A DNA stretch of 64,000 nt, taken from NCBI RefSeq assembly GCF_002813775.1, contig NZ_CP020370.1:3931501-3995500 (forward strand). Reading direction: 5' to 3'. The stretch comes from Candidatus Thiodictyon syntrophicum (GTDB lineage Bacteria; Pseudomonadota; Gammaproteobacteria; Chromatiales; Chromatiaceae). Below are positions 31,360-46,681 of this stretch, one piece after another. The notes below the pieces were generated by a model, which saw only the letters and a list, made by a program, of their open reading frames with translations, made no database searches and was not told the DNA's origin. Within the stretch, counting starts at the first letter, position 1. Each line of letters begins with the position of its first letter. Made by a program: the position numbers and the translations under genes.

Positions 31360-34300
31360 ATGACCCCCCCTGCCCTACTTGCGTCGACCGCCGAAGCCCT
31401 GTTCTCACCCCTGACCCCGCCCCTGCCGACGCGCCCCGGCGAGCGCCTGCTGTGGGGCCGCCTCCAGGGCGCGGCCACGGCGCTCGCCATCGCCGCGGCG
31501 GCGCGCGCCCACCCCGGGCTGGTGCTGGCCCTGGTGGAGGATGTCCAGGCGGCGGGGCGCCTGCGCGACGCCCTGACCTTCTTCCTGGGCGAGGGGTCGG
31601 AGCAGGGCGCCATCCCGCTCCTCGGCTTCCCGGACTGGGAGACCCTGCCCTACGACTGCTTCTCGCCCCTGCCGGAACTGGTCTCGGAGCGGCTGCTGAC
31701 CCTGCACCGGCTGCCGGGGCTCAAGCGCGGGGTGCTGGTGGTGCCGGTGGCGACCCTGCTCCAGCGCCTGCCGCCGCGCGACTATGTGGACGGCCAGTCC
31801 TTGGTGCTCGCGGTCGGCGACCAACTGGATCTCGACGCCACCCGCCGCCGCCTGGAGCGCGCCGGCTATTCCTGCGTCTCCCAGGTGATGGGCCATGGCG
31901 AGTTCGCGGTGCGCGGCTCCATCCTCGACTGCTTCCCCATGGGAAGCACTGAGCCCCTGCGCATCGATCTCTTGGACGACGAGGTCGATACCATCCGCAC
32001 CTTCGATCCGGAGACCCAGCGCACGCGCGAACGCCTGACCCGGGTGCGGATGCTCCCGGCGCGCGAGTTCCCCCTGAGCGAGGAGGCGATCTCGGGCTTC
32101 CGCCAGCGCTACCGGGTGCTCTTCGAGGGCGACCCCACGGTCAGCCTGATCTACCGGGAGGTCTCCGAGGGCCGCACCCCCGGCGGGCTGGAATACTACC
32201 TGCCGCTCTTCTTCGAGGAGACCGCGACCCTCTTCGACTACCTGCCCGAGGGCGTCCTGGCCCTGGAGTCCGACCGCTGCCGGGACGCGGCGACCGCCTT
32301 TCTGGACGGGGTCGAGGCGCGCTACGAGCAGCGCCGTCACGATGTCGAGCGGCCCCTGCTGCCGCCCGCCCGGATCTATCTCGCGGCGGACGAACTCGCG
32401 CATCGGCTCAAGGGCCTGTCCGGGGTCCTCTACCAGCGCGGCGAGCAGGACGAGCGCCGCAAGGGCTACGCCGAGGCGCACAACTTCGCCACCCGCGCCC
32501 TGCCGCCCATGAACATCCAGGCGCGCGCCGCCCACCCGGCCCAGGCGCTCCAGGAGTTCCTGGCCGCCCCGGGCCGCCGTGTGCTCTTCATCGCCGAGGG
32601 CCTGGGCCGGCGCGAGATGCTCAACGACCACCTGCACGGCTTCGGCGTCAACCCCCGCCCGGTCGAGGGCTGGGCCGCCTTCCTGGCCGGCAAGGACCCG
32701 ATCGGACTGACCGTCGCCCCCCTGGAGCAGGGCCTGTGGCTGGCGGACCCGGATCTCGCCATCGTCACCGAGACCCAACTCTACGGCGAGCGCGTGCGCC
32801 AGGAGCGCCGCCGCCGGGCGCGCGAGCGCGACGGCGACGCCATCGTGCGCAATCTGACCGAGCTGACGGCCGGCTCCCCGGTCGTCCACGAGGACCACGG
32901 GGTCGGTCGCTATCTGGGTCTGGAGACGCTGACCGTCGGGGGTCTGACCACCGAGTTCCTGACGCTCGAATATGCCAAGGGCGACAAACTCTATGTCCCG
33001 GTCAGCTCGCTGCATCTGATCTCGCGCTACACCGGCGCCTCCCCGGAGAACGCCCCCCTGCACCGCCTGGGCGGCGACCAGTGGGACAAGGTCAAGCGCA
33101 AGGCGGCCGAGAAGGCGTGCGACGTGGCCGCGGAACTGTTGGACATCTACGCCCGGCGCGCCGCCCGGCCCGGCATCGCCTTCCCGGAGCCGGGCGAGGA
33201 GTACGCCGCCTTCGCCGACGCCTTCGCCTTCGAGGAGACCCCGGACCAGGCGCGCGCCATCGAGGGGGTGCTGGCCGACATGGAGGACACCAAGCCCATG
33301 GACCGCGTGGTGTGCGGCGATGTCGGCTTCGGCAAGACCGAGGTCGCCATGCGCGCCGCCTTCGTGGCTGCCAACGGCGGGCGTCAGGTGGCCGTGCTGG
33401 TGCCCACCACGCTGCTGGCCCAACAGCACTTCGAGAACTTCTCCGACCGCTTCGCCGACTGGCCGATCAAGGTCGAGAGCCTGTCGCGCTTTCGCAATGC
33501 CAAGGAACAGAAGGTCATCCTGGACGGCCTGGCCAAGGGTACGCTCGACATCGTGGTCGGCACCCACAAGCTCCTGCAGGCATCGGTCAAGTTCAAGAAC
33601 TTAGGGTTAGTCATCATCGACGAGGAACACCGCTTCGGCGTGCGCCACAAGGAGCAGATGAAGTCACTGCGTGCCGAGGTCGATGTCTTGACCCTCACCG
33701 CCACCCCCATCCCGCGTACGCTCAATATGGCGATGTCCGGCCTGCGCGACCTCTCCATCATCGCCACGCCGCCGGTCGAGCGCCATCCCATCAAGACCTT
33801 CGTCAGCCCCTGGAACGATGCACTGATCCAGGAGGCCGTGCTGCGCGAATTGAAACGCGGCGGCCAGGTCTATTTCCTCCACAATGAGGTGGAGACCATC
33901 GAGAACCAGGCCCAGAAACTCGAGGCCCTGATCCCGGAGGCCCGCATCCAGGTCGCCCACGGCCAACTGCGCGAACGCGACCTGGAGCGCATCATGCGCG
34001 ACTTCTATCACCAGCGTTTCAATGTCCTGGTGTGCACCACCATCATCGAGAGCGGCATCGACGTGCCCAGCGCCAATACCATCGTCATCAACCGTGCGGA
34101 CAAGCTCGGCCTGGCGCAACTGCACCAATTGCGCGGCCGGGTCGGGCGCTCGCACCATCGCGCCTATGCCTACCTGATCACCCCGCCCCCCAAACAGATG
34201 ACCGAGGACGCCAAGAAGCGCCTGGAGGCGATCGAGTCCATGGAAGACCTGGGCGCCGGCTTCACACTCGCCACCCATGACCTGGAGATCCGCGGCGCCG

Positions 34301-34869
34301 GTGAACTCCTGGGCGATGAGCAGTCCGGCCAGATCCACGAGATCGGCTTCTCGCTCTATATGGATCTGCTGGAGCGGGCGGTCCAGGCGCTCAAGGCCGG
34401 GCGCACTCCGGAACTCGATCGTCCCCTGGACCACGGCGCCGAGATCGACCTGGGCCTACCCGCGCTGCTGCCCAGCGACTACCTGCCCGATGTCCATACG
34501 CGGCTCGTCATGTACAAACGGATCGCCAGCGCCAAGGACCAGGAGGCCTTGCGCGAGATTCAAGTGGAAATGATCGACCGCTTCGGCCTGCTGCCCGACC
34601 CGGCCAAGAACCTGATGGCGATCACGGAGATCAAGCTCACCGTCCAGCCCTACGGCATCAAGAAGATCGAGGCCGGCCCCGCGGGCGGGCGGGTCATCTT
34701 CGGCAGCGATACCAAGGTCGATCCCACGCGGCTCATCAAGCTCATTCAGACCCGGCCGAAGGAATACAAGCTCGACGGGGGGGATAAGCTGCGGTTCTTT
34801 CGGGACCTGTCCGATCCGACCCAGCGGATCGAGCAGGTCGGGCGGGTGGTAGAACAGTTGCTGGGCTGA
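31360..34869 (+). CDS. mfd: Transcription-repair coupling factor
   Basis: Displaces RNA polymerase stalled at DNA lesions and recruits UvrA. At 1169 residues it has full family length. The N-terminal UvrB-homology region (about 30-350) is followed by the RNAP-interaction domain (PVVHEDHGVGRYLGL near 505), the SF2 motor with Walker A DVGFGKTE (near 653), DEEH (near 753), TATPIPRTL and the RecG-like translocation motif. The C-terminal D7 domain (TRP-like LPSDYLPD) is present. No frameshift. Its upstream region contains a short P1 hairpin. Confidence 0.97.
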   Translation: MTPPALLASTAEALFSPLTPPLPTRPGERLLWGRLQGAATALAIAAAARAHPGLVLALVEDVQAAGRLRDALTFFLGEGSEQGAIPLLGFPDWETLPYDCFSPLPELVSERLLTLHRLPGLKRGVLVVPVATLLQRLPPRDYVDGQSLVLAVGDQLDLDATRRRLERAGYSCVSQVMGHGEFAVRGSILDCFPMGSTEPLRIDLLDDEVDTIRTFDPETQRTRERLTRVRMLPAREFPLSEEAISGFRQRYRVLFEGDPTVSLIYREVSEGRTPGGLEYYLPLFFEETATLFDYLPEGVLALESDRCRDAATAFLDGVEARYEQRRHDVERPLLPPARIYLAADELAHRLKGLSGVLYQRGEQDERRKGYAEAHNFATRALPPMNIQARAAHPAQALQEFLAAPGRRVLFIAEGLGRREMLNDHLHGFGVNPRPVEGWAAFLAGKDPIGLTVAPLEQGLWLADPDLAIVTETQLYGERVRQERRRRARERDGDAIVRNLTELTAGSPVVHEDHGVGRYLGLETLTVGGLTTEFLTLEYAKGDKLYVPVSSLHLISRYTGASPENAPLHRLGGDQWDKVKRKAAEKACDVAAELLDIYARRAARPGIAFPEPGEEYAAFADAFAFEETPDQARAIEGVLADMEDTKPMDRVVCGDVGFGKTEVAMRAAFVAANGGRQVAVLVPTTLLAQQHFENFSDRFADWPIKVESLSRFRNAKEQKVILDGLAKGTLDIVVGTHKLLQASVKFKNLGLVIIDEEHRFGVRHKEQMKSLRAEVDVLTLTATPIPRTLNMAMSGLRDLSIIATPPVERHPIKTFVSPWNDALIQEAVLRELKRGGQVYFLHNEVETIENQAQKLEALIPEARIQVAHGQLRERDLERIMRDFYHQRFNVLVCTTIIESGIDVPSANTIVINRADKLGLAQLHQLRGRVGRSHHRAYAYLITPPPKQMTEDAKKRLEAIESMEDLGAGFTLATHDLEIRGAGELLGDEQSGQIHEIGFSLYMDLLERAVQALKAGRTPELDRPLDHGAEIDLGLPALLPSDYLPDVHTRLVMYKRIASAKDQEALREIQVEMIDRFGLLPDPAKNLMAITEIKLTVQPYGIKKIEAGPAGGRVIFGSDTKVDPTRLIKLIQTRPKEYKLDGGDKLRFFRDLSDPTQRIEQVGRVVEQLLG

Positions 34870-36447: not shown

Positions 36448-39400
36448 ATGAGCGCCCTGGACGACCTGGTCGAGCGTTACGGCGCCAATCCCGCCGGGCT
36501 CTTGGCGTTCGATCAGGACGTTCCGGCGCTGCTGCCCTATGCGACCCTGGTAGCCACCCGCCGAGCCGGTTGCCCTGACCTGAGCGCCCTGCACGCCGTC
36601 TATGAGTGGCAGGACAGCCCCCTGGTATTCCTGGTCGACGGCGATCGGCTAGAGGATGACAACCACCTGCGTCGCATCCGTCGCCGGATCGCACTCAGCG
36701 GTGACGCGCCCTATCTGGGCGTCGTGCAACCGGGGCGGCTGACCATTCACGCGATCGGACTAGACAGTGCCTCGGCGGGACTTAGCAGAATTCCTCTTGC
36801 GGTCGAAGCACCCATCACCTTCGCCTACCTGGCCTCTCAGCGACCCCAAGCGCGGGGCGTGCGGCGGCAGTGGATTACGGACTTGATTCTGCGATTGCTG
36901 CAAGGCTCCCTGGGCGATCTGCGACGCGCTGGGATTGCTGAGCCAGACGCCATCTCGCTGGCTGGCCGCGCGCTGTTCACCCGCTTCCTGGCCGACCGCG
37001 AGTTACTCCCGCAGACCCTCGCGCTAACGGAAGTGGTGCGTGCCTTGTTCGACGACCCGGACCAAACAGCACGAACCTCTCGCTGGCTCGATAAGACCTT
37101 CAACGGCGACTTCCTGCCACTCAGTCCCGGCTTGCTGACCCGTTTGCCCACCGCGGCCTGCCTGACTTTGGGTCATATCATGCGCCGCGCGGAGCCTGGC
37201 GGGCAGCTCTACCTGGGGTGGGAGCAGAAGTGGGACTTCCTGGATTTCGCCCAGATTCCGGTGGGTGTCTTAAGCCAGGCCTATGAGGGCTACCTGCGCG
37301 AGCATGACCCGAAGCGCCAGCGCGACCAAGGCGGTTTCTACACACCGCGCCCAATTGCCGAACTGCTGGTGCGCGGTGCTTTTCATGCCCTGGGTCGCGA
37401 GGGTTCGGCCCATACCGCCAGAGTGTTGGACCCGGCCGTCGGGGCGGGCGTCTTTCTGATCACGGCGTTTCGCCAACTGGTGGCCGAGCGTTGGAAGCAC
37501 ACGGGTATCCGGCCCGATTCGGCGACCCTGCGTGACATTCTCTACCACCAGCTCACCGGCTTCGACATCGACGAGGCGGCCCTGCGCTTTGCCGCCCTTG
37601 GACTCTACCTCATCGCCATCGAGTTGGACCCGCAGCCGGAGCCAGTTGAGAAGCTGCGCTTTGAGGACCTGCGCGAGCGGGTGCTCTGGAAGGTCGGTCA
37701 GGTTGATGACACGGGCGGGAACGGCCGGCTAGGCAGCCTCGGCAATGCGGTCGGCGAAGTCCACGCGGGCTTTTACGACTTGGTGGTCGGCAATCCGCCC
37801 TGGACCGGAGCGCGACGTATCCCCGACTGGAAGCAGGTCACGGATCACGTCACTCGTATCGCCTGCGCACGATTGGGACCCGACACCGCACCCCCGCCGA
37901 TCCCCAACGAGGTGCCGGACCTGCCATTCCTCTGGCGGGCCATGGAGTGGGCGCGGTCCGGCGGCCAAATCGCCGTTGCACTGCACGCCCGGCTCTTGTT
38001 CCAGCAGGGAGACGGGATGCCCGAGGCGCGTAGCGCAATCTTTTCGGCGCTCGACGTAACCGCCGTCGTCAACGGCACCGAATTGCGCAAGACCAAGGTC
38101 TGGCCGCAAATTACAGCACCATTCTGCCTCTTGTTCGCGAGGAACCGGCTGCCCTCGCCAGGGGCGGGATTTCGCATGTTGAGTCCGCGGCTGGAACCAG
38201 CGCTCAATGGCGCGGGAAGCATGCGTCTCGACCCGGCCAATGCCGACGAGGTGACTGCACAGCAAGTGGCGGCGCGGCCCACGATCCTAAAGACGCTATT
38301 CAGCGGCACGCGACTCGATTTGGAGTTACTTGAGCGAATCGAGGCTCGAGGACTGCCTACGCTGGACCAGTATTGGCGACGGCTGTTTGGGCAATCAAAG
38401 AATCGAGCGCGGCCGGTTGGCGGCAATGGATACCAGCGACTACGCGAAAGCACCGAGCATCCGCAATCAGCAAGAGATATAGTCGGTTTGCCCGAGCTTG
38501 TGATACATGGGCGGCTGCCTCTTTTGCTGGGTGTTGATGGTCTCCCGGCGTTCGATCAACCTCTCGTTCATCGCGCGAGAAGCCGTGAGACCTATCGAGC
38601 ACCTTTGGCAATCGTCCCTGAGTCCCCGCGAGCGGACTCCGGTCGCATTCGGACAACCGTATCAGATTTCGATGTCGTCTTTAACGAAAGCTATTACGGC
38701 TACAGTTCGGTCGGACATCCCGACGCTCAAACACTGACCCGCTATTTGGCCTTAGTGCTGGGCAGCCGCTTCTCCCTTTGGCATGCGCTGCTAACGAGCG
38801 GGAAGCTGGGTTTTGAACGGGACACGATCGAAAAAGCAACCATCGACTCCGTTCCGCTGGTTCCACTGGAGGATCTGAGTCCATCGGACCGCAAGCGAAT
38901 TGCTCCGCTATTCAACTCGATCGTGTCAAGCGAGACCGATGAGCACTGGGGCGAAATCGATAACTGGGTCGCATCACTCATCGGACTACGGGAGCGGGAC
39001 CGTCAACTCATAACTGATACCCTGGCCTATAATCTGCCGTTTGCGGCAAACAAGAATGCGGCTCAAAGCGCACCCGCCCAAGCAGCGATGGAGGCCTTCT
39101 GCCGCTGCCTCGCGGCGGACCTAATGCCTTGGGCCAATAGATTCGGAGCAGTGATCGTTGTCGCTGTTGCTGATACGCTGCCCGCGAACTGCCCCTGGCA
39201 GGTCCTGTGGTTGGGCGTCACTGAATCGGGCGCCCAACCGGCATCCGCCCGGGGGACCGATGATTGGTTGGAGATCGTGCATATCGCGGATCAACTCGCC
39301 GTTGCAGAGATCGTGCGTCCAGACCCTGCCCGCAGAGGTCTCTGGATCGCCCGGCTGCGCCAGGCACGGTATTGGAGTCTCAGCCAGGCACGGCTGTTGG

Positions 39401-39456
39401 CCCAGCGTATCCTCTGGGAGCATATGGACAGCCTGCTCAGCGGGGGAGATGCGTGA
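36448..39456 (+). CDS. N6-adenine DNA methylase, large type IIG/Eco57I-like protein
   Basis: The 1002-residue protein carries SAM-binding motif I as LDPAVGAGVFLITAF (about 327-341) and catalytic motif IV NPPW (about 449-452), with GGFYTPRPIAELLVRG (about 301-316) before motif I as in class gamma N6-methylases. The N-terminal 300 residues and C-terminal 450 are unlike Dam-type enzymes and probably include helical target-recognition regions, although no PD-(D/E)XK motif was seen in them. The next gene overlaps by 4 bp and encodes a nuclease-like protein. Methylase and nuclease together suggest restriction-modification or a related phage-defence system. Confidence 0.82.
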   Translation: MSALDDLVERYGANPAGLLAFDQDVPALLPYATLVATRRAGCPDLSALHAVYEWQDSPLVFLVDGDRLEDDNHLRRIRRRIALSGDAPYLGVVQPGRLTIHAIGLDSASAGLSRIPLAVEAPITFAYLASQRPQARGVRRQWITDLILRLLQGSLGDLRRAGIAEPDAISLAGRALFTRFLADRELLPQTLALTEVVRALFDDPDQTARTSRWLDKTFNGDFLPLSPGLLTRLPTAACLTLGHIMRRAEPGGQLYLGWEQKWDFLDFAQIPVGVLSQAYEGYLREHDPKRQRDQGGFYTPRPIAELLVRGAFHALGREGSAHTARVLDPAVGAGVFLITAFRQLVAERWKHTGIRPDSATLRDILYHQLTGFDIDEAALRFAALGLYLIAIELDPQPEPVEKLRFEDLRERVLWKVGQVDDTGGNGRLGSLGNAVGEVHAGFYDLVVGNPPWTGARRIPDWKQVTDHVTRIACARLGPDTAPPPIPNEVPDLPFLWRAMEWARSGGQIAVALHARLLFQQGDGMPEARSAIFSALDVTAVVNGTELRKTKVWPQITAPFCLLFARNRLPSPGAGFRMLSPRLEPALNGAGSMRLDPANADEVTAQQVAARPTILKTLFSGTRLDLELLERIEARGLPTLDQYWRRLFGQSKNRARPVGGNGYQRLRESTEHPQSARDIVGLPELVIHGRLPLLLGVDGLPAFDQPLVHRARSRETYRAPLAIVPESPRADSGRIRTTVSDFDVVFNESYYGYSSVGHPDAQTLTRYLALVLGSRFSLWHALLTSGKLGFERDTIEKATIDSVPLVPLEDLSPSDRKRIAPLFNSIVSSETDEHWGEIDNWVASLIGLRERDRQLITDTLAYNLPFAANKNAAQSAPAQAAMEAFCRCLAADLMPWANRFGAVIVVAVADTLPANCPWQVLWLGVTESGAQPASARGTDDWLEIVHIADQLAVAEIVRPDPARRGLWIARLRQARYWSLSQARLLAQRILWEHMDSLLSGGDA

Positions 39457-40172
39457 TTAATGCCCCAGCCCCGGCTGGCCGAGCGGTCTACGAGCAACTC
39501 ACGGCGGGTGTGCAATTGCCCTTGCCACCAATACCCCGGTTTATGCTGGAAGTCATTGCGGAGAGTATCCTTGCGGCTTGGTTGAATATCCCCCAGGATC
39601 AAATCGGGATCGCTGACGAGGCGGGGTTGAACGCCATGATGGAGACGCAACTGAACCAGCTCGCCGACCAGGACGAGCAGTTCCAAATGTTGGTGGCGGC
39701 TGCAGTCCGCGGCAAAGAGACAATCAATTTCGATGGCACCTGGCTGGAGAAGCGCCCCGACCTCTCACTGATCCTGACCAACGGCGTCAGGGCGCGCGAT
39801 TTCCCACTCACCATTGAATGCAAGCTGATCCACAAAGCGACGAAGAAAGGCGTAAGTCTTTACTGCAATAAGGGTATGAAGCGATTCATCGACGGGGATT
39901 ACGGTTGGGCCAGGCAGGAAAGTTTGATGCTCGCCTACGTCCGTGACGGCTCCAGCATCAAGACACATCTTGAACCCTATCTCGGCCGCCATTTCGGAAA
40001 GGCCCACGACATCTTCTGCACCACGACCCTACCCGTACCGACCGGGTCAAGCGCCGCGCAGGCGATATCGAAGCATCGCCGCCGTTTCCGCTATATCGAT
40101 CGGGCAGCGCAGGACGATCCAGGCCCAATCGCGATCGAACATATCTGGCTGGATGCCCGCGGTTCAAACTGA
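39453..40172 (+). CDS. PD-(D/E)XK-like protein coupled to the methylase
   Basis: The 239-residue protein starts at GTG 39453, whose GTGA overlaps the methylase stop; AGCGGGGGAGA just upstream serves as RBS. I do not recognise the family. A nuclease-like core is visible: RPDLSLIL (D103), 19 residues on LTIECKLI (E122, K124), matching the D-(x)n-E-x-K signature. Before it is a helical part (residues 25-80) with FMLEVIAESIL. Overlap implies fixed stoichiometry with the methylase. It may cut unmodified DNA, or be a recognition subunit. Confidence 0.65.
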   Translation: MINAPAPAGRAVYEQLTAGVQLPLPPIPRFMLEVIAESILAAWLNIPQDQIGIADEAGLNAMMETQLNQLADQDEQFQMLVAAAVRGKETINFDGTWLEKRPDLSLILTNGVRARDFPLTIECKLIHKATKKGVSLYCNKGMKRFIDGDYGWARQESLMLAYVRDGSSIKTHLEPYLGRHFGKAHDIFCTTTLPVPTGSSAAQAISKHRRRFRYIDRAAQDDPGPIAIEHIWLDARGSN

Positions 40173-40189
40173 CCGTTACGCACCACGTC

Positions 40190-40405
40190 GATGCGCTGCA
40201 TCGCAAGCAGTCGCTTGGCCCGCTCGACCCCGACATCGCCCAGCCACGACTGGATGACCAGCAGGAATTCGGTGCGGTTGGATGCACACAGACCGATCCT
40301 GGCAGCAACAGCCAGCGCGTTCAGAAGGTCCGCGGCCTCCGGTTCCCAGAGCAGGATCGCGGTCAGGGCGCTGGTATAGACAGCCAGATCAATCCCAGTG
40401 GCCAT
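40190..40405 (-). pseudogene. FitB/VapC-type PIN toxin, truncated and missing its first Asp
   Basis: From ATG 40405 about 72 residues match the intact toxin at 44792-45211. The catalytic Asp of VVDTSA is replaced (AVYTSA), and homology stops after LLAMQRIDVV, so the later acidic residues are gone. The frame continues into unrelated sequence. The toxin must be inactive. Confidence 0.85.
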
Positions 40406-40652
40406 CGGCGTTGTAGCCCAGAATCTCATCCTCACTGCGCCGATCGAGTACCGGCAAGGTCCAGACCTCGGCCTTCAGCCAGTCGAGGCTTTCCTCTACC
40501 GTGAGTCTGCGCGGGACGTCGAGCGGCTCAGCCAGTCCCGACGCAAGGGTGACGATAGCCTCCTGCGCCATCGAGCAGCGGTGGTCGGCGGCGGCTTGCT
40601 TGAGCCTGCCGTACAGGTCATCCGGGACGTTTCGCAAGACCAGGGTGGGCAT
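40389..40652 (-). CDS. FitA-type ribbon-helix-helix antitoxin (copy 1)
   Basis: The 87-residue protein has an N-terminal RHH motif (TLVLRNVPDDLYGRLKQAAA, 3-22) and a helix with CSMAQEAIVTL. Its C-terminal tail WTLPVLDRRSEDEILGYN is the toxin-binding part and is nearly identical to the intact copy at 45195-45458. The toxin gene overlaps its 3' end as in the other copy, but is broken. The antitoxin is still open and could act as an anti-addiction factor against the intact toxin. Confidence 0.8.
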   Translation of the reverse strand: MPTLVLRNVPDDLYGRLKQAAADHRCSMAQEAIVTLASGLAEPLDVPRRLTVEESLDWLKAEVWTLPVLDRRSEDEILGYNADGHWD

Positions 40653-40697
40653 ATCACACTCCTCGCAACGGCGATGCTGGCGTCATGCTAGGGCCGA

Positions 40698-40886
40698 TCC
40701 GCGGGGCACGCAACCAGTCTTGATCATGACCGCGGCCGGCGGCGCTCGGTCCGCACAGCGGACCCCACGGCGAGGCCGCGTTCCGTAGGGTCCGCTGTGC
40801 GGACCAACGACCTCGCGGCTCATGCGGCGGCTGCAATCTTGACCAAGACCACCCACGCCCGACAACCGGAGGTCGAGGCTTGCGCC
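40698..40886. repeat. Repeat-bearing spacer before the STAND gene
   Basis: Palindromes GGTCCGCACAGCGGACCCCA (about 40759) and TAGGGTCCGCTGTGCGGACC (about 40787) are mutually inverted. TTGATCATGACCGCGGCCGG near 40721 resembles a P2 end. No gene seen. Confidence 0.5.
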
Positions 40887-40916: not shown

Positions 40917-40969
40917 CGGGCAGTCAACCCATCCCTAAGCGGGTCAGACACATCGCCGGAGCCGTGCCC

Positions 40970-43900
40970 ATGCCCGCTGACACCTTCGCCTGGCTGCATC
41001 TGACCGACCTGCACTTCGGCCTCAAGGGCCAGGGCTGGCTGTGGCCGACCCTGCGCCAGCCCTTCCTCGCCGACCTGGCCCTGCTGCATGACCTCTGCGG
41101 CCCCTGGGATGCGGTGCTCTTCACCGGCGACCTGGTCCAGTCCGGCCAGTCGGCCCAGTTCCAGGGGCTGCAAGAGCAGGTGCTGGGGCCGCTCTGGGAG
41201 CAACTGACCCGTCTCGGCTCCGGCGACGCGGTGCTGGTCGCGGTGCCGGGCAACCATGACCTGTTCCGGCCCAATGCCGCCGAGGACAACGCGGCCATCG
41301 ACGCCCTGCTGGAGCCGGACCGGTTCCCCGGCATCGCCGCCAAGTTCTGGGACCAGCCGGACGGCGGCTATCGGCGGGTCATCAACCACGCCTTCGCCGC
41401 CTGGCGCGACTGGTGGGACAGTGCCCCGCACCGCCCGGCGCGGATCGCCACCGGCGCACTCCCCGGCGACCTGGCCCTGACCCTCACCAAGGGCGGGCGG
41501 CGCATCGGGCTCATGGGCCTCAACACCGCCTTCCTGCAACTTCGAGCCGGCAACTATCAGGGCAAGCTGGTCTGGGACCCGCGCCAGGTCCAGGCACTCT
41601 GTCCGGACGGCATCGACCGCTGGCACGCGGACCACGACCTCTGCCTGCTGCTCACCCACCAGGGCCCGGACTGGCTGACCCCGGAGGCGCGCGCCTTGGG
41701 CGACAGCGAGATCGCCCCCGCCGGGCGTTTTGCGCTGCACCTGTTCGGGCACCTGCACGAGGCGCGGCTGGAGACGACCCGCCGCGGCGCCAACCCGGAG
41801 GCGGTGCGGCTGTGGCAGGGCTGTTCGCTCTTCGGCATGGAGCACTTTGGTGAGCCGCCCCAGTTGCACCGCGCCCACGGCTACAGCGCCGGTCAGGTCC
41901 GCTTCACCGCAGACGGGCCGCAACTGCGTCTGTGGCCGCGCGTCGCGACCAACAAGACCGGCCCCTGGCGCCTGATCCCGGACCATGACCACTTCCATTT
42001 GGAACCGGATCAGGGCACCCCACCCGAACCGCTGACCCAGCGCCGCCGGCCCAATCCGGCCGCAACCGCCCCGACCGCCCCCGCCGACGGACCAACGACC
42101 CAGGCGACCCCGCCGCCCCGGCCCGCCCCGCACTCGACCCTGCCGCGGCGCCAGCCCTTCTTCGGCCGGGTGGATGAACTCGCCCGTATCGCCGCCGCGC
42201 TGGAGCCCAGGGACCGCTCCTGGGGCCTGGGGCTCGCCGGCCCCGGCGGCATCGGCAAGACCGCGCTGGCACTGGAGGCCGCCCACCGCGCCCCGGCCGA
42301 GCGCTTCCCGCTCAAGCTCTGGGTCACCGCCAAAGGCCGCGAACTGGACCCGGACGGCGAGCGCCCGCTGCCGGACCAGCCGGTGCATGACTTCGACAGC
42401 CTGCTCGCCGAATTGGGTCGTGCCCTGGCGCGCGAGGACATCCCCCGCAGCGACCCCGCCGAGCGCGCGACCCTGGTGCGCCATGCCCTGGCCGGGCAGC
42501 GGGCGCTGCTGGTCATCGACAACCTGGAGACCCTGAACACCGCCGAACGGCAGCGGGTCTTCGACCTGCTGCGCAATCTCCCCGACGACTGCCGCGCCCT
42601 GGTCACCAGCCGCCGCGCCAGCGGCGCCAGCCCCGGCAACTGGCTCGCGCTCGACCGGCTGGACCGCGGCGCCGCCGACGCACTGCTGGCGGAACTGGCC
42701 CGGCGCTGGCCGCCGGTCGGGCGGCTCGATGACGCCGACCGCGCCCGGCTCTATGCCGAGACCGGCGGCAACCCGCTGCTGCTCACCTGGACCGCCGGCC
42801 AACTGGGGCTGGACCGGGGCCGCTGCCACACCGTCGACGACGCCATCGACCGGCTGCAACAGGCCCACCGGCACAACGACCCGCTGGCGTTCATCTTCGG
42901 CGACCTGGTGGACGGCTTCACCGCGGACGAGACCGCGGTGCTGGCCGCACTGGTCCACTTCAGCGAACCCGCACCGCTGCCCTGGCTGCTGCCCCTGACC
43001 ACGCTCAGCCCGACCGCCGCCCGCACGGCGCTGGACGACCTGCGCGACCGCTCACTGCTGCTCACCGACGACGACCGCGGCACCTGGCTGCTGCCGGCCC
43101 TGGCCGCCCGCTATCTGCGCCGGGTGCGCCCGGAGGTGGTCGCCGCCACCGGCGAGCGCCTGGCCGAGCGCGCCTATGCCCTGGCCCAGGAGAATGGCTA
43201 CGACAAGCACGACCGCTTCCCGACCCTTGAGGCCGCCTGGCCCGAGCTGGCCGCCGCGCTGCCGGTGCTGATCGGCGGGGCCAACCGGCGGTTGCAGGGG
43301 TTCTGCGGCGCGCTGGGGCAGTTTCTCACCTTCTCCGGCCGCTGGGACGACTGGCTGGCGCTGAGCCTGGCCGCGGAGTCCCAGGCCTTGGCGGCCGGCG
43401 ACCACGACAGGGCGGGTCGGCGGGCCTATAACGCTGGCTGGTGCCATCTGCTGCGCGGCAACGCCGAGGGCGTGCTCGACTGTGCCGGACGCGCCGCAGC
43501 CGACTGGCAACAGTCCAACGCCGGTTCCCGCGAACGGGCGACCGCGATCCAACTGCGCGGCCAGGGCCATCGGCTCGCCAAGGACTACCCGGCCGCCATC
43601 GCCGCCCTGCACGAGGCCCTGGCACTGGATCGTGGCGTGTCGGCCCGCAGCGGCGACGTTGCCGCTGATCTAAACTCACTCGCCTCCGCGCTGCGGGACG
43701 CCGGGCAATACGACGAGGCCGAGGGATATTACCGCGAGGCCCTGGCTATCGCCCTCGACCTCCCCGCTCCCGAGGGCGTCGCAACCTTGACCGGGAACCT
43801 CGCCGTACTGGCCCTGGACCGCGAGGACTGGCCCGCGGCCGAGCGCCTGGCCCGGGAGGCCCTGACCCTGGCCGAGCCGGTCGGGCGCAAGGAACTTATC

Positions 43901-44056
43901 GGGGCGCACTGTCAGGTGCTCGCGAAGGCCCTGGCCCGCCAGGGCCGCGGTGCCGAGGGCCGCTGTCACGCCGAGCGCGCCGTCGCACTCTTCACCGAGC
44001 TGCGCTCCCCGCACCTGGCCGAGGCCCAGGCCACCCTGGCCGAGTGCCGGGCCTAG
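40970..44056 (+). CDS. Metallophosphoesterase-STAND NTPase-TPR fusion protein
   Basis: A 1028-residue multidomain protein. Residues 1-350 are a calcineurin-like phosphoesterase: HLTDLHFG (D13, H15), TGDLVQSG (D54), PGNHD (94-97) and LFGHLHEAR near 259. A Pro/Ala-rich linker (about 355-400) leads to an NB-ARC/STAND NTPase, with QPFFGRVDEL, Walker A GPGGIGKT (about 423-430), Walker B LLVIDN near 513 and the sensor LVTSRR near 545. From about 780 to the end, helical TPR-like repeats (LASALRDAGQYDEAEGYYREAL near 905) complete it. This is sensor-switch-effector architecture: TPRs would sense a ligand, the NTPase oligomerises, and the phosphoesterase hydrolyses nucleic acid or a nucleotide. It stands alone between toxin-antitoxin copies. 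ATG 40970 is preferred to upstream frames lying in the leader. A defence role is inference. Confidence 0.82.
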   Translation: MPADTFAWLHLTDLHFGLKGQGWLWPTLRQPFLADLALLHDLCGPWDAVLFTGDLVQSGQSAQFQGLQEQVLGPLWEQLTRLGSGDAVLVAVPGNHDLFRPNAAEDNAAIDALLEPDRFPGIAAKFWDQPDGGYRRVINHAFAAWRDWWDSAPHRPARIATGALPGDLALTLTKGGRRIGLMGLNTAFLQLRAGNYQGKLVWDPRQVQALCPDGIDRWHADHDLCLLLTHQGPDWLTPEARALGDSEIAPAGRFALHLFGHLHEARLETTRRGANPEAVRLWQGCSLFGMEHFGEPPQLHRAHGYSAGQVRFTADGPQLRLWPRVATNKTGPWRLIPDHDHFHLEPDQGTPPEPLTQRRRPNPAATAPTAPADGPTTQATPPPRPAPHSTLPRRQPFFGRVDELARIAAALEPRDRSWGLGLAGPGGIGKTALALEAAHRAPAERFPLKLWVTAKGRELDPDGERPLPDQPVHDFDSLLAELGRALAREDIPRSDPAERATLVRHALAGQRALLVIDNLETLNTAERQRVFDLLRNLPDDCRALVTSRRASGASPGNWLALDRLDRGAADALLAELARRWPPVGRLDDADRARLYAETGGNPLLLTWTAGQLGLDRGRCHTVDDAIDRLQQAHRHNDPLAFIFGDLVDGFTADETAVLAALVHFSEPAPLPWLLPLTTLSPTAARTALDDLRDRSLLLTDDDRGTWLLPALAARYLRRVRPEVVAATGERLAERAYALAQENGYDKHDRFPTLEAAWPELAAALPVLIGGANRRLQGFCGALGQFLTFSGRWDDWLALSLAAESQALAAGDHDRAGRRAYNAGWCHLLRGNAEGVLDCAGRAAADWQQSNAGSRERATAIQLRGQGHRLAKDYPAAIAALHEALALDRGVSARSGDVAADLNSLASALRDAGQYDEAEGYYREALAIALDLPAPEGVATLTGNLAVLALDREDWPAAERLAREALTLAEPVGRKELIGAHCQVLAKALARQGRGAEGRCHAERAVALFTELRSPHLAEAQATLAECRA

Positions 44057-44128
44057 CCCCCGGCGGGCGCGGACTGCCGGCCGCGACCAGCGGGCCTTCG
44101 CCCTAGTCCCATGACCGGCGGCAGTGCA

Positions 44129-44206
44129 GTCCCGTAGGGTCCGCTGCGCGGACCATTCGCCAGTTGAGTCTGCGCGCGGTTCGGTCCGCACAGCGGACCC
44201 TACCAG
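44129..44206. repeat. 78-bp direct repeat, copy 1
   Basis: Contains the palindromes GGTCCGCTGCGCGGACC and GGTCCGCACAGCGGACC around GCCAGTTGAGTCTGCGCGCG. Copy 2 is at 44337-44414. Between and after them GACCCCAACGGGGTCGAAC occurs three times (about 44215, 44290, 44432). Confidence 0.8.
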
Positions 44207-44336
44207 TGGCGGACGACCCCAACGGGGTCGAACCTACCAGCCCAGCCCGATCGGCCTACCCCGCGCCAATGGGCCACCATCGGCGGACGACCCCAACGGG
44301 GTCGAACATACCAGCCCAGGGCAACGCCCTGGGTTA

Positions 44337-44414
44337 GTCCCGTCGGGTCCGCTGCGCGGACCATTCGCCAGTTGAGTCTGCGCGCGGTTCGGTCCGCACA
44401 GCGGACCCTACCAG
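44337..44414. repeat. 78-bp direct repeat, copy 2
   Basis: Matches 44129-44206 except near its start (CGTCGGGTCC against CGTAGGGTCC). The whole 44057-44790 stretch has no gene and consists mainly of such short palindromes. Confidence 0.8.
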
Positions 44415-44495
44415 GCTGACCGTAGCGGACGACCCCAACGGGGTCGAACATATCAGCTTAAGGCGCAGCCCTGGGTTAGCGTTGTTATTCGGCTT

Positions 44496-44552
44496 AGCCC
44501 TGAAAGGGCGTGACATGACGGTGGGCTCCCCATGTCACGCCCTTTCAGGGCT
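44496..44552. repeat. Perfect 22-bp inverted repeat (AGCCCTGAAAGGGCGTGACA)
   Basis: Arms 44496-44517 and 44531-44552 are perfectly complementary, with a 13-bp loop. Related palindromes occur at 56687-56743 (both arms) and at about 58769-58790 (one arm). Confidence 0.85.
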
Positions 44553-44791
44553 GATCCCTGGTGTCCGCCGACCCCAGGGCGTTGCCCTGGGCTGGTATGT
44601 CCCGCCCCTTCGGGGCTCAAGGTCGTGGCGATGACAGGGTAACCTTCCGCCACGAAACCAAGGCGCATGGGCACCCGGATTGACCCCAGCGCGCCGAATA
44701 AGGAACCCGCCGCAGCATTCCAGGGACAGGGCATTCCAGGGACGGGATACTTAATTCGCGCCCTGGCTGATTCGATGAGGTTGTACCGCAA

Positions 44792-45211
44792 TCAGGGCAT
44801 AGGATAAGCCGCAACCCGCACATCAGTCTGCGAAAAGTCATTCCCCTTGAAGAGCAGCGGAACCTGTTCGCGGATCGCCAGGGCATAAGAGAAACAGTCG
44901 CCGAAGTTGAGCCCAGCCGGATGCCGACCCTTGCCGAAGCGCCGGAAACGCAGGGCCGCGGCATCGGCCAGGGCCTCGTCCAAGGGGACCGTTTCGATGC
45001 GCTGCATGGCAAGCAGTCGCTTGGCGCGCTCGACCCCGACATCGCCCAGCCGCGACTGGATGACCAGCAGGAATTCGGTGCGGTTCGGGGCACACAGACC
45101 GATCGTGGCAGCGGCAGCCAGCGCGGTCAGGAGGTCCGCGGCCTCCGGTTCCCCGAGCAGGATCGCGGTCAGGGCGCTGGTATCGACGACCAGATCAATC
45201 GCAGTGGCCAT
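44792..45211 (-). CDS. FitB/VapC-type PIN-domain ribonuclease toxin (intact)
   Basis: The 139-residue PIN-domain toxin has the acidic set of the family: D10 in VVDTSA, E46 in NRTEFLL, D105 in LNFGDCFSYA and D125 in GNDF. It should cut RNA when free of antitoxin. ATG 45211 lies inside the antitoxin gene (17-bp overlap), so the pair is translationally coupled. A degraded copy is at 40190-40405. Whether the target is tRNA or mRNA cannot be told. Confidence 0.92.
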   Translation of the reverse strand: MATAIDLVVDTSALTAILLGEPEAADLLTALAAAATIGLCAPNRTEFLLVIQSRLGDVGVERAKRLLAMQRIETVPLDEALADAAALRFRRFGKGRHPAGLNFGDCFSYALAIREQVPLLFKGNDFSQTDVRVAAYPMP

Positions 45212-45500
45212 CGGCGTTGTAGCCCAGAATCTCATCCTCACTGCGCCGATCGAGTACCGGCAAGGTCCAGACCTCGGCCTTGAGCCATGCGAGGCTTTCC
45301 GCTACCGAGGGCCAGCGCGGTCGGTCGCGTGCGCCGCCCAGTCCCGACTGAAGGGCGACGATGGCCTCCTGTGCTATGGAGCAGCGGTGGTCGGCGGCGG
45401 CTTGCTTGAGCCTGCCGTACAGCTCATCCGGAACATTTCGCAAGACCAGGGTCGGCATGTCTATCCTCGCAATGGGGGTACTGGCGCAATGCTAGGGCCG
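44989..45500. repeat. Direct repeat copy 2 containing the intact FitAB-type module
   Basis: Counterpart of 40189-40697, in the same orientation, 4.8 kb apart. It covers most of the toxin gene 5' half, the antitoxin gene and the upstream CAATGCTAGGGCCGATCG segment. Confidence 0.85.
45195..45458 (-). CDS. FitA-type ribbon-helix-helix antitoxin (intact pair)
   Basis: 87 residues: RHH N-terminus (TLVLRNVPDELYGRLKQAAA) and C-terminal toxin-binding tail (WTLPVLDRRSEDEILGYNAD). It neutralises the overlapping PIN toxin and should autoregulate the operon. It differs from copy 1 mainly in the linker at residues 38-50. The promoter region upstream (45459-45500) is shared with copy 1. Confidence 0.88.
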   Translation of the reverse strand: MPTLVLRNVPDELYGRLKQAAADHRCSIAQEAIVALQSGLGGARDRPRWPSVAESLAWLKAEVWTLPVLDRRSEDEILGYNADGHCD

Positions 45501-45553
45501 ATCGACGGGGCCCGCAACCAGGTTTGATCGTTACGCCGTCAGGCTGCGGCGGC

Positions 45554-45904: not shown

Positions 45905-46351
45905 ATGACGCCCCAGCCCGCAGCCGTTCCGCAGATCGACCCGAGTCGTTTCGCAGCCCTCCCCGGCGGAAAGCGCAAGTTCAATTGGTTCGCCTTCGAG
46001 CTGGCGTGCGAGATCCGGCAGGCGATTGCGCCGCCGCTCGTGCGCACCCTCGCCAAACGCGGCTACGATCACGCGCGCATCAAGCGCTCCTGCATCGCGC
46101 TCGCGATCGGACTGCAAGGGGTTGTGCGCAAGCAGCTCAGGGGCGAGATCCCGCAGATGGAGATCGGTTGGGACCAGGTCGAGGCCGCCTTTCCGGGCCT
46201 GACCGACAAGATGGTCGACCGGTTGTTGGATTGTACGGGAACGGCCTGGGAGCGACTCCTGAGCTATTGCGTGGCCTGTCCGTCCGCGTGTGTGACGAAT
46301 AAGGACGACTACTGTCCGATGTTTGACGATCCGCTCTATTCCGACGGCTGA
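45905..46351 (+). CDS. Conserved-looking hypothetical protein with Cys-rich C-terminus
   Basis: I do not recognise the family. The 148-residue protein has a basic, helical middle (RGYDHARIKRSCIALAIG, about 56-73, and GVVRKQLRG). Its cysteine cluster CVACPSACVTNKDDYCPMF near 122-140 could bind a metal. ATG 45905 gives a compact ORF with normal codon use; the longer upstream frame runs through the P2 repeat. Its stop overlaps the start of the KAP-NTPase remnant, so the two may once have been an operon. Confidence 0.6.
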   Translation: MTPQPAAVPQIDPSRFAALPGGKRKFNWFAFELACEIRQAIAPPLVRTLAKRGYDHARIKRSCIALAIGLQGVVRKQLRGEIPQMEIGWDQVEAAFPGLTDKMVDRLLDCTGTAWERLLSYCVACPSACVTNKDDYCPMFDDPLYSDG

Positions 46352-46681
46352 TGCCCGCAATGAAGCACTACCGCAACGACACCTGGACCCTGGACGACGG
46401 CCTCGGGCTCGGGCGCGCCGGGGACCAGGTGGCGCGCATGGTCCTGGAGGTGGAGCCGCCCTTCACCGTCGGCGTTACCGGCAAATGGGGCTTGGAAAGC
46501 CCGGCACCGTCGTCTCGACTTCATCGCCCGCTTCCTGCGCCGGCGCCAGGAATGGCAGGTGGAGGCCCGTCGGCTCCTGGATGAGTTCGAGTCTGCGCTC
46601 CAGGACCCGCGCCGCCCGCACCTGCTGAACCTCGCCCGCCGGCCCATCTTCCTCACCCTGGATGGCCCTGGTGCAAGTCAA
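46351..46681 (+). pseudogene. KAP-family P-loop NTPase remnant
   Basis: DDGLGLGRAGDQVARMVLEVE followed by PPFTVGVTGKWG is the start of KAP-type NTPases up to the Walker A Gly-Lys; the following S-G-K-T is missing. A different frame then carries LDFIARFLRRRQEWQVEARR and LLDEFESALQD. A large internal deletion and frameshift have left only about 110 residues. KAP NTPases are often membrane-associated and occur in defence islands. Confidence 0.65.

Follow-up and report, generated by a model that had tools for sequence, protein, structure and literature searches.

A probable NLR-like conflict protein joining a metallophosphoesterase to an NB-ARC switch and TPR repeats in Candidatus Thiodictyon syntrophicum

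The metallophosphoesterase (MPE) is a recently validated antiphage effector. In DS-8 (PMC13092281, Science 2026), one protein combines metallophosphatase and NACHT domains and stops phage in E. coli; changing MPE or ATPase residues abolishes this defence, so that both domains are needed, and DS-9 is a two-gene system composed of an MPE plus a HAD partner. The authors of that study liken the DS-8 MPE to human SMPDL3A and report the substrates of both systems as unknown. Calcineurin-type effectors had previously been placed in the GAP1-N1, STAND-FGS, and TRADD-N conflict systems by Kaur et al. (PMC7159879, PMC8195603; 2020-2021), who predict that they act as a nucleotidyl phosphodiesterase and point out that SLATT pore partners accompany them in some systems. 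Here we analyse a gene on a 64,000-nucleotide stretch of Candidatus Thiodictyon syntrophicum (contig NZ_CP020370.1, positions 3,931,501 to 3,995,500; hereafter the window, whose numbering we use), from a genome of three contigs and 7.74 Mb, that joins an MPE to an NB-ARC switch and TPR repeats in one chain.

The gene occupies positions 40970-44056 on the forward strand, a stop-terminated frame of 1,028 open codons encoding an MPE-NB-ARC-TPR protein of 1,028 aa. A long frame alone is weak evidence of a gene here because the stretch is GC-rich, and a 712-aa antisense frame indeed overlaps the same positions. GC content at codon positions 1, 2, and 3 is 0.78, 0.53, and 0.90, and the overall ratio of nonsynonymous to synonymous substitution (dN/dS) against two intact homologues is 0.32 (orthologue of genome G127, 87.6% identity, dS 0.216, dN 0.069) and 0.27 (a paralogue of 62.5% identity). 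Full-length homologues are also held by another genome of the genus. Although the frame stays open upstream as far as a TTG at 40880, the ATG at 40970 is the likely start, because a GGAG read by eye precedes it (40958-40961), the Lamprocystis purpurea orthologue begins with the same MPADTF, and DNA homology to that orthologue begins at 40953, just before the ATG. Sequence comparison confirms a genuine three-domain protein, composed of an MPE, an NB-ARC/AAA_16 STAND switch, and TPRs.

Pfam matches, judged against each family's curated cut-off, recovered the three modules that an earlier note had read from the letters. The MPE module (residues 1-355, 40970-42034; alignments A1 and A2) matches Metallophos (PF00149) over residues 9-264 with 45 bits against a cut-off of 21.5. 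It is a complete calcineurin-like phosphoesterase, as had been claimed: all eight catalytic positions (D13, H15, D54, N95, H96, H230, H261, H263) are present, including the motifs GNHD (94-97) and GHLH (260-263), and they are kept in 29 of 29 aligned MPE sequences. A Pro/Ala-rich linker follows in the sequence (residues 356-395, 42035-42154), and relatives with other sensors cease matching at residues 351-387. The nucleotide-binding domain (residues 396-550, 42155-42619) passes both AAA_16 (35.7 bits, cut-off 32.6, residues 396-539) and, narrowly, NB-ARC (23.8 bits, cut-off 23.5, residues 406-550), while NACHT stays below its cut-off (17.2 versus 26.7 bits). The motifs that we take to be those of the switch are FFGR (397-400), Walker A (424-431, with K430), Walker B (D517), TSR (546-548), and GNP (600-602); their residues, except for the variable Walker A position 428, are invariant in the four sequences of this architecture in alignment A3, in line with the intact P-loop NTPase proposed earlier. 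Residues 551-740 (42620-43189), aligned in A3 and containing GNP, presumably form the ARC/winged-helix region; they have no separate Pfam match, and the NB-ARC match of paralogue L027 (loci and genomes carry our own L and G numbers) reaches profile position 226 of 248. The C-terminal helical half (residues 741-1028, 43190-44053), a presumed sensor, contains the expected TPR-like repeats C-terminal to the switch (TPR_12, 53.1 bits, cut-off 30.1, residues 901-969), and the A3 profile of these repeats matches kinesin light chain TPRs (E 1.1e-18).

Like DS-8 (DefensePredictor; NCBIfam NF053861), the window protein is one chain with an N-terminal MPE followed by a STAND-type P-loop NTPase, and it shares the catalytic MPE positions with L078, a DS-8 family member (1,073 bits, cut-off 790) in which Pfam shows nSTAND4 rather than NACHT. 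However, its switch is NB-ARC and its C-terminus TPR, whereas DS-8 has NACHT and L078 has no TPR match. By analogy it may work like DS-8, though it is not a member. The DS-9A model (NF053862) matches the N-terminal part of the MPE (residues 9-105, 29.9 bits) without reaching its cut-off of 420, and DS-9 differs in employing two genes, MPE and HAD, instead of one chain. The systems of Kaur et al. resemble the window protein in using the MPE as an exchangeable N-terminal effector, with related MPEs on NACHT-FGE and EAD8 chains, but in the window chain itself Pfam detects none of the FGS, EAD, and TRADD-N domains at E 0.1. Among PADLOC models, the candidate PDC-S60 (PDLC05051) matches residues 9-105 with 28.5 bits over only ~93 of 1,027 profile positions, and none of the four families matched at E 0.1 is named Avs. 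As for the earlier description of the protein as undescribed, published work already places MPE effectors on STAND, EAD, and TRADD-N proteins and DS-8 is validated, so MPE-STAND conflict proteins are known; what appears new is the MPE-NB-ARC-TPR combination, of which we found no instance in the open PMC literature, judged mostly from listings. Five papers that surfaced there concern, judging by title, fungal NLRs or amyloids.

The same genome holds two further proteins related in architecture. At ~5,240,000 of C1 (L033:4977-7186), a TIR_2-NB-ARC frame overlaps a separate TPR frame; the chassis is of the window protein's kind but carries TIR as effector, its switch 34% identical to the window's over 219 aa and its TPRs 30% over 171 aa, with TIR in the place of the MPE and with switch and TPR in two overlapping frames. 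A second MPE-STAND protein, MPE-NACHT-FGE-sulfatase (L082:6559-11136:+; C1, ~2,154,558-2,159,135), has an MPE that scores 110.4 bits with the DS-8 model, under the 790 cut-off. Elsewhere, L079:5172-7883:+ and L080:1213-3795:- carry the DS-8 NTPase and C-terminal part (model positions 289-994 and 298-994) with no match to the MPE part of that model, so that different N-termini, too, seem to be accepted by the DS-8 chassis.

Judging from its fusion partners, the MPE is a module swapped between several sensors in close relatives. One genome of the window's genus, G107, holds MPEs 62, 43, and 41% identical to that of the window, fused respectively to nSTAND_NTPase5 (L024), EAD8 (L025), and TIR_2 (L026). 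The gene after the MPE-TIR_2 one encodes an FGE-sulfatase domain, and ~100 bp past the MPE-EAD8 gene, on the same strand, lies an EAD8-nSTAND1-FGE-sulfatase gene, whose EAD8 match (23.1 bits) is under the cut-off of 27. Contact between EADs has been proposed as the recruitment mechanism for EAD proteins. This pair has the arrangement expected if the MPE were recruited in trans through EAD-EAD contact, and hence suggests delivery both in cis and in trans within one Chromatiaceae genus. The same MPE family occurs on NACHT-FGE proteins (13 tree rows, 11 verified by long alignment to L056, the only one on which Pfam was run for this label; contig ends truncate L060 and L066), on nSTAND5 (identified by Pfam in L069 and by similarity in L076), and joined to a shared C-terminal part of ~750 aa with no Pfam match, which we label 'iSTANDlike' (L054, L075, L085). 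In L055 and L086 the MPE has a 361-aa gene to itself, which overlaps the gene encoding a related C-terminal part, and in L068 nothing beside the MPE matches Pfam. This swapping, including the EAD8 pair, gives good support to the effector-switch-sensor logic that the earlier note had put forward.

A tree of 29 MPE domains (leaving out L077, a weak, partial viral match, L082, whose DS-8-like MPE the A2 profile missed, and broken copies) groups the nSTAND5-linked L024 with three NB-ARC-TPR MPEs in a starred clade of four (100/100), inside which the joining of L024 and L027 is weak (88/65). The starred branches force at least two separate nSTAND5 joins, and the NB-ARC-TPR form possibly had a single origin. 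Branches are long, and the places of DS-8 and of a SIR2 fusion are unsure.

A single genus thus presents one effector on four chain kinds, in one case encoded separately next to a presumed receptor, and the family offers natural material for finding the MPE substrate and for testing effector/sensor interchangeability in bacterial NLR-like proteins. We tentatively put forward, as a possibility that we would not yet favour, that the MPE is an interchangeable effector with one nucleotide target, recombined onto at least six chain kinds (NB-ARC-TPR, nSTAND5, TIR, EAD8, NACHT-FGE, and the unnamed part of ~750 aa), acting in cis on most and in trans where EAD8 or a split gene is involved, and that the version with NB-ARC and kinesin-light-chain-like TPRs is a bacterial NLR that senses peptides and evolves fast. 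In that case, identifying the substrate of one member would identify it for the whole family, and perhaps for DS-8 and DS-9.

Some relatives show further arrangements. A broken relative of the MPE-TIR gene lies in the window's own genome (L031:6924-9081, reverse strand; C1 near 6,017,000-6,019,000), with MPE pieces 84-86% identical to L026 and no match to its TIR-bearing stretch. In G340 the MPE is fused to SIR2_2 (L081:5826-7778:+), giving two effector-type enzymes in one chain. The MPE-NACHT-FGE protein L056:6378-10883:+ has an additional N-terminal CbiA/ParA-type domain, and ~300 residues precede the MPE in L057, L058:11050-15402, and L062.

Selection differs along the chain in comparisons with two relatives. 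Against L028, dN/dS is 0.27 in the MPE, 0.13 in the NB-ARC plus ARC/winged-helix region, and 0.52 in the C-terminal half; against L006, a copy from a metagenome-assembled genome (MAG) taken as two separate pieces, the values are 0.31, 0.14, and 0.48. The C-terminal half thus changes three to four times as fast as the switch, and the contrast is significant in both (Fisher p 8e-6 and 5e-4). Because it is present in two of four comparisons and absent in the more distant two, a sensor half that evolves fast over short time scales is suggested, not established.

With its three domains, intact catalytic and ATPase motifs, swapped MPE, mobility as a single gene, and faster sensor in those two comparisons, the window protein is in our judgement a good candidate for, and quite probably is, a stand-alone NLR-like (STAND) conflict protein running from sensor to switch to MPE effector. 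It would probably belong to a known anti-virus or self-sacrifice kind, in a new combination; the need for both MPE and ATPase residues in its distant relative DS-8 supports a putative defence role by analogy. In such a mechanism, the kinesin-light-chain-like TPR half would bind an invader or stress peptide, upon which the NB-ARC switch would exchange nucleotide and might oligomerise; oligomerisation would turn on or concentrate the N-terminal MPE, and the activated enzyme would cut a phosphodiester bond, so that the infected cell or the phage is stopped. Among solved structures, sequence comparison places Rv0805/Icc and LMO2642, both cyclic-nucleotide phosphodiesterases, closest to the MPE (E 1.5e-4 to 0.004, over at most ~92 N-terminal positions). 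Because of these, and because the DS-8 MPE has been likened to SMPDL3A, we lean to a nucleotide or nucleotide signal as the most likely substrate, with about an even chance of being right, while nucleic acid is a possible but less favoured target.

A number of observations weigh against this reading. The DS-8 model is missed by far (25.7 bits, cut-off 790), a failure for which we do not file the protein as a DS-8 member. Its MPE does align with that of L078 over 243 columns with probability 92.9, which speaks for the reading, but the similarity is remote (23% identity). The two comparisons that show a fast sensor both use the window sequence and hence share it, and there is no contrast between sensor and switch with L030 (0.46 versus 0.43, p 0.49) or L027 (0.20 versus 0.37, p 0.34), for which dS is higher. 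Defence-type neighbours of some relatives speak for the reading, but these were picked by eye because they looked defence-like: PARIS-like AriA/AriB and a PD-(D/E)XK protein near L096, PDC-M31A/B near L024, a KAP-type protein with PifA/QatA matches near L055, and Cas9 and Cas1 near L030. When neighbours are taken by position instead (frames of at least ~150 aa on either side of the gene at L024, L025, L026, L027 (one side), L029, L030, and L096, whose left neighbour was counted past its toxin-antitoxin pair), five of 13 frames have domains linked to defence, conflict, or toxicity (PDC-S26/PD-(D/E)XK, Cas9, EAD8-nSTAND1-FGE, FGE, and PIN) and eight have none; the scan of the FGE frame at L026 covered Pfam and NCBIfam. 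Two of the eight matched PADLOC (mad3, 85.1 bits; mad8, 24 bits), which we read as cross-matches of an ABC-transporter ATPase and a RadA-like protein, and one of ten control genes of the window has a weak match. We therefore reject defence-island context as proof and claim no enrichment. Finally, the switch also resembles AfsR/HaaT-type regulators.

That last resemblance raises an alternative that we hold unlikely, namely a signalling regulator in which an NB-ARC-TPR part akin to AfsR/HaaT answers to a host peptide and the MPE, a class III phosphodiesterase in this view, adjusts the level of a cyclic nucleotide. The switch matches AfsR weakly (37.6 bits) and paralogue L027 matches HaaT (46.7 bits), and the nearest solved MPEs, Rv0805/Icc and LMO2642, would fit such a function. 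However, these scores are far under the respective cut-offs of 1430 and 1125, presence is patchy with broken copies inside one genus, and the same MPE family sits on the conflict-type chains EAD8, TIR, nSTAND5, and NACHT-FGE. It is also rather improbable that this is a conflict protein in which the MPE, rather than killing, removes or makes a signal for another protein, or one that is aimed at plasmids or kin, not phage. The EAD8 pair shows that the MPE can be part of a larger system, and the substrate of DS-8 and DS-9, reported as unknown in PMC13092281, and the nucleotidyl phosphodiesterase prediction with SLATT partners of Kaur et al. would agree with this, but the window has no obvious receiver among the flanking frames checked, which are toxin-antitoxin, methylase, and a CHAT fragment. 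A decaying remnant without function is very improbable, since despite broken or incomplete copies in G107, G142, and G889 the window copy has an intact frame and motifs, with MPE and switch dN/dS of 0.13-0.31 against its two closest relatives, and G127 has two unbroken copies.

The conflict-protein candidate is not a lone fusion, an idea we rejected on finding relatives in genomes, plasmids, and viral contigs. Its closest relative by name is in Lamprocystis purpurea DSM 4197 (L005, genome G127), and the Thiodictyon MAG matches too. A whole-protein search matched six of 146 genomes of the family, and the NB-ARC-TPR half was found in five of 55 relatives, every one in the window's genus, of which eight genomes were sampled. 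Unbroken full-length copies number one in the window's genome (G000) and two in G127; draft assemblies may add to the breaks seen in G107, G142, and G889, and G035, G079, and G890 have no NB-ARC-TPR match at E 1e-10. In a sampled survey at E 1e-20, the MPE profile A2 matched one genome in 369 from the class, which is that of the window, 14 in 398 from the phylum, that genome again among them, and one of 337 in a second class of the phylum, namely its centre genome; these counts likely miss copies because no more than about five candidates in each genome are scored at the first stage. Matches were found in two of 72,556 plasmid records and in three loci on viral contigs, with none among 50,697 phage records, and the NB-ARC-TPR half in none of 126 candidate viral stretches. 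The earlier note had held that homologues in metabolic operons would speak against defence. The Rhizobium plasmid copy has a sugar-transport operon and a gene for elongation factor G as neighbours, with a gap of >1 kb and an opposite-strand gene between them upstream, and the Pseudomonas plasmid copy lies beside umuDC and an integrase; neither is an obvious metabolic operon. Annotated neighbours cover these two plasmid records, and the matter was judged mainly by fusion partners.

At the DNA level, the match to L. purpurea spans 40953-44125 at ~90% nucleotide identity, extending past the gene by 17 bp at its 5' end and 69 bp at its 3' end, and the L006 match has the same outer limits. At E 1e-20 the flanks do not match the orthologue's locus except for a toxin-antitoxin copy, which points to single-gene mobility. 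The gene lies ~6 kb downstream of the housekeeping gene mfd (31360-34869, forward strand) at a similar distance in the window (6.1 kb) and G127 (6.4 kb), with different intervening genes; the stretch beside mfd looks like an accessory one. G142 holds this stretch, and the gene was not found there at E 1e-10; in an empty-site comparison, contigs end less than ~1 kb past mfd in G035, G889, and G890, and less than 0.5 kb past it in G079.

The toxin-antitoxin surroundings noted earlier hold for the most part. FitA-like ribbon-helix-helix antitoxins flank the gene on the left (40392-40652, reverse strand; PF22513, 37.8 bits, in a repeat copy) and right (45198-45458, reverse strand; PF22513, 35.7 bits), the right one with a PIN-domain toxin (44795-45241, reverse strand; PF01850, 64.5 bits), but Pfam finds nothing in the PIN frame on the left (40094-40435). 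Of the proposed methylase-nuclease operon, the methylase is borne out by an N6_Mtase match, whereas the presumed nuclease frame (39264-40169) has no Pfam or PADLOC match. The CHAT remnant is real but marginal (25.0 bits, cut-off 24), and the claimed KAP remnant (46351-46578) falls away with no Pfam match.

The FitA/PIN-type copies (40094-40744 and 44795-45548) are related to each other: 40188-40744 and 44994-45548 share 88% identity across 557 bp, and a third copy, L005:5302-5796 upstream of the L. purpurea orthologue, matches both. In G107, a truncated MPE-NB-ARC-TPR copy (L030:1130-8540) lies less than 1 kb from a Cas9 gene and a short Cas1 frame, followed by a frame that we read as Cas2-like. 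Just 3' of the window gene, a cluster of direct and inverted repeats (44128-44617) starts where homology to the orthologue stops, at 44125, and ends in a match to the Acido-Lenti-1 RNA (RF01687, 44573-44617, 41 versus 37 bits).

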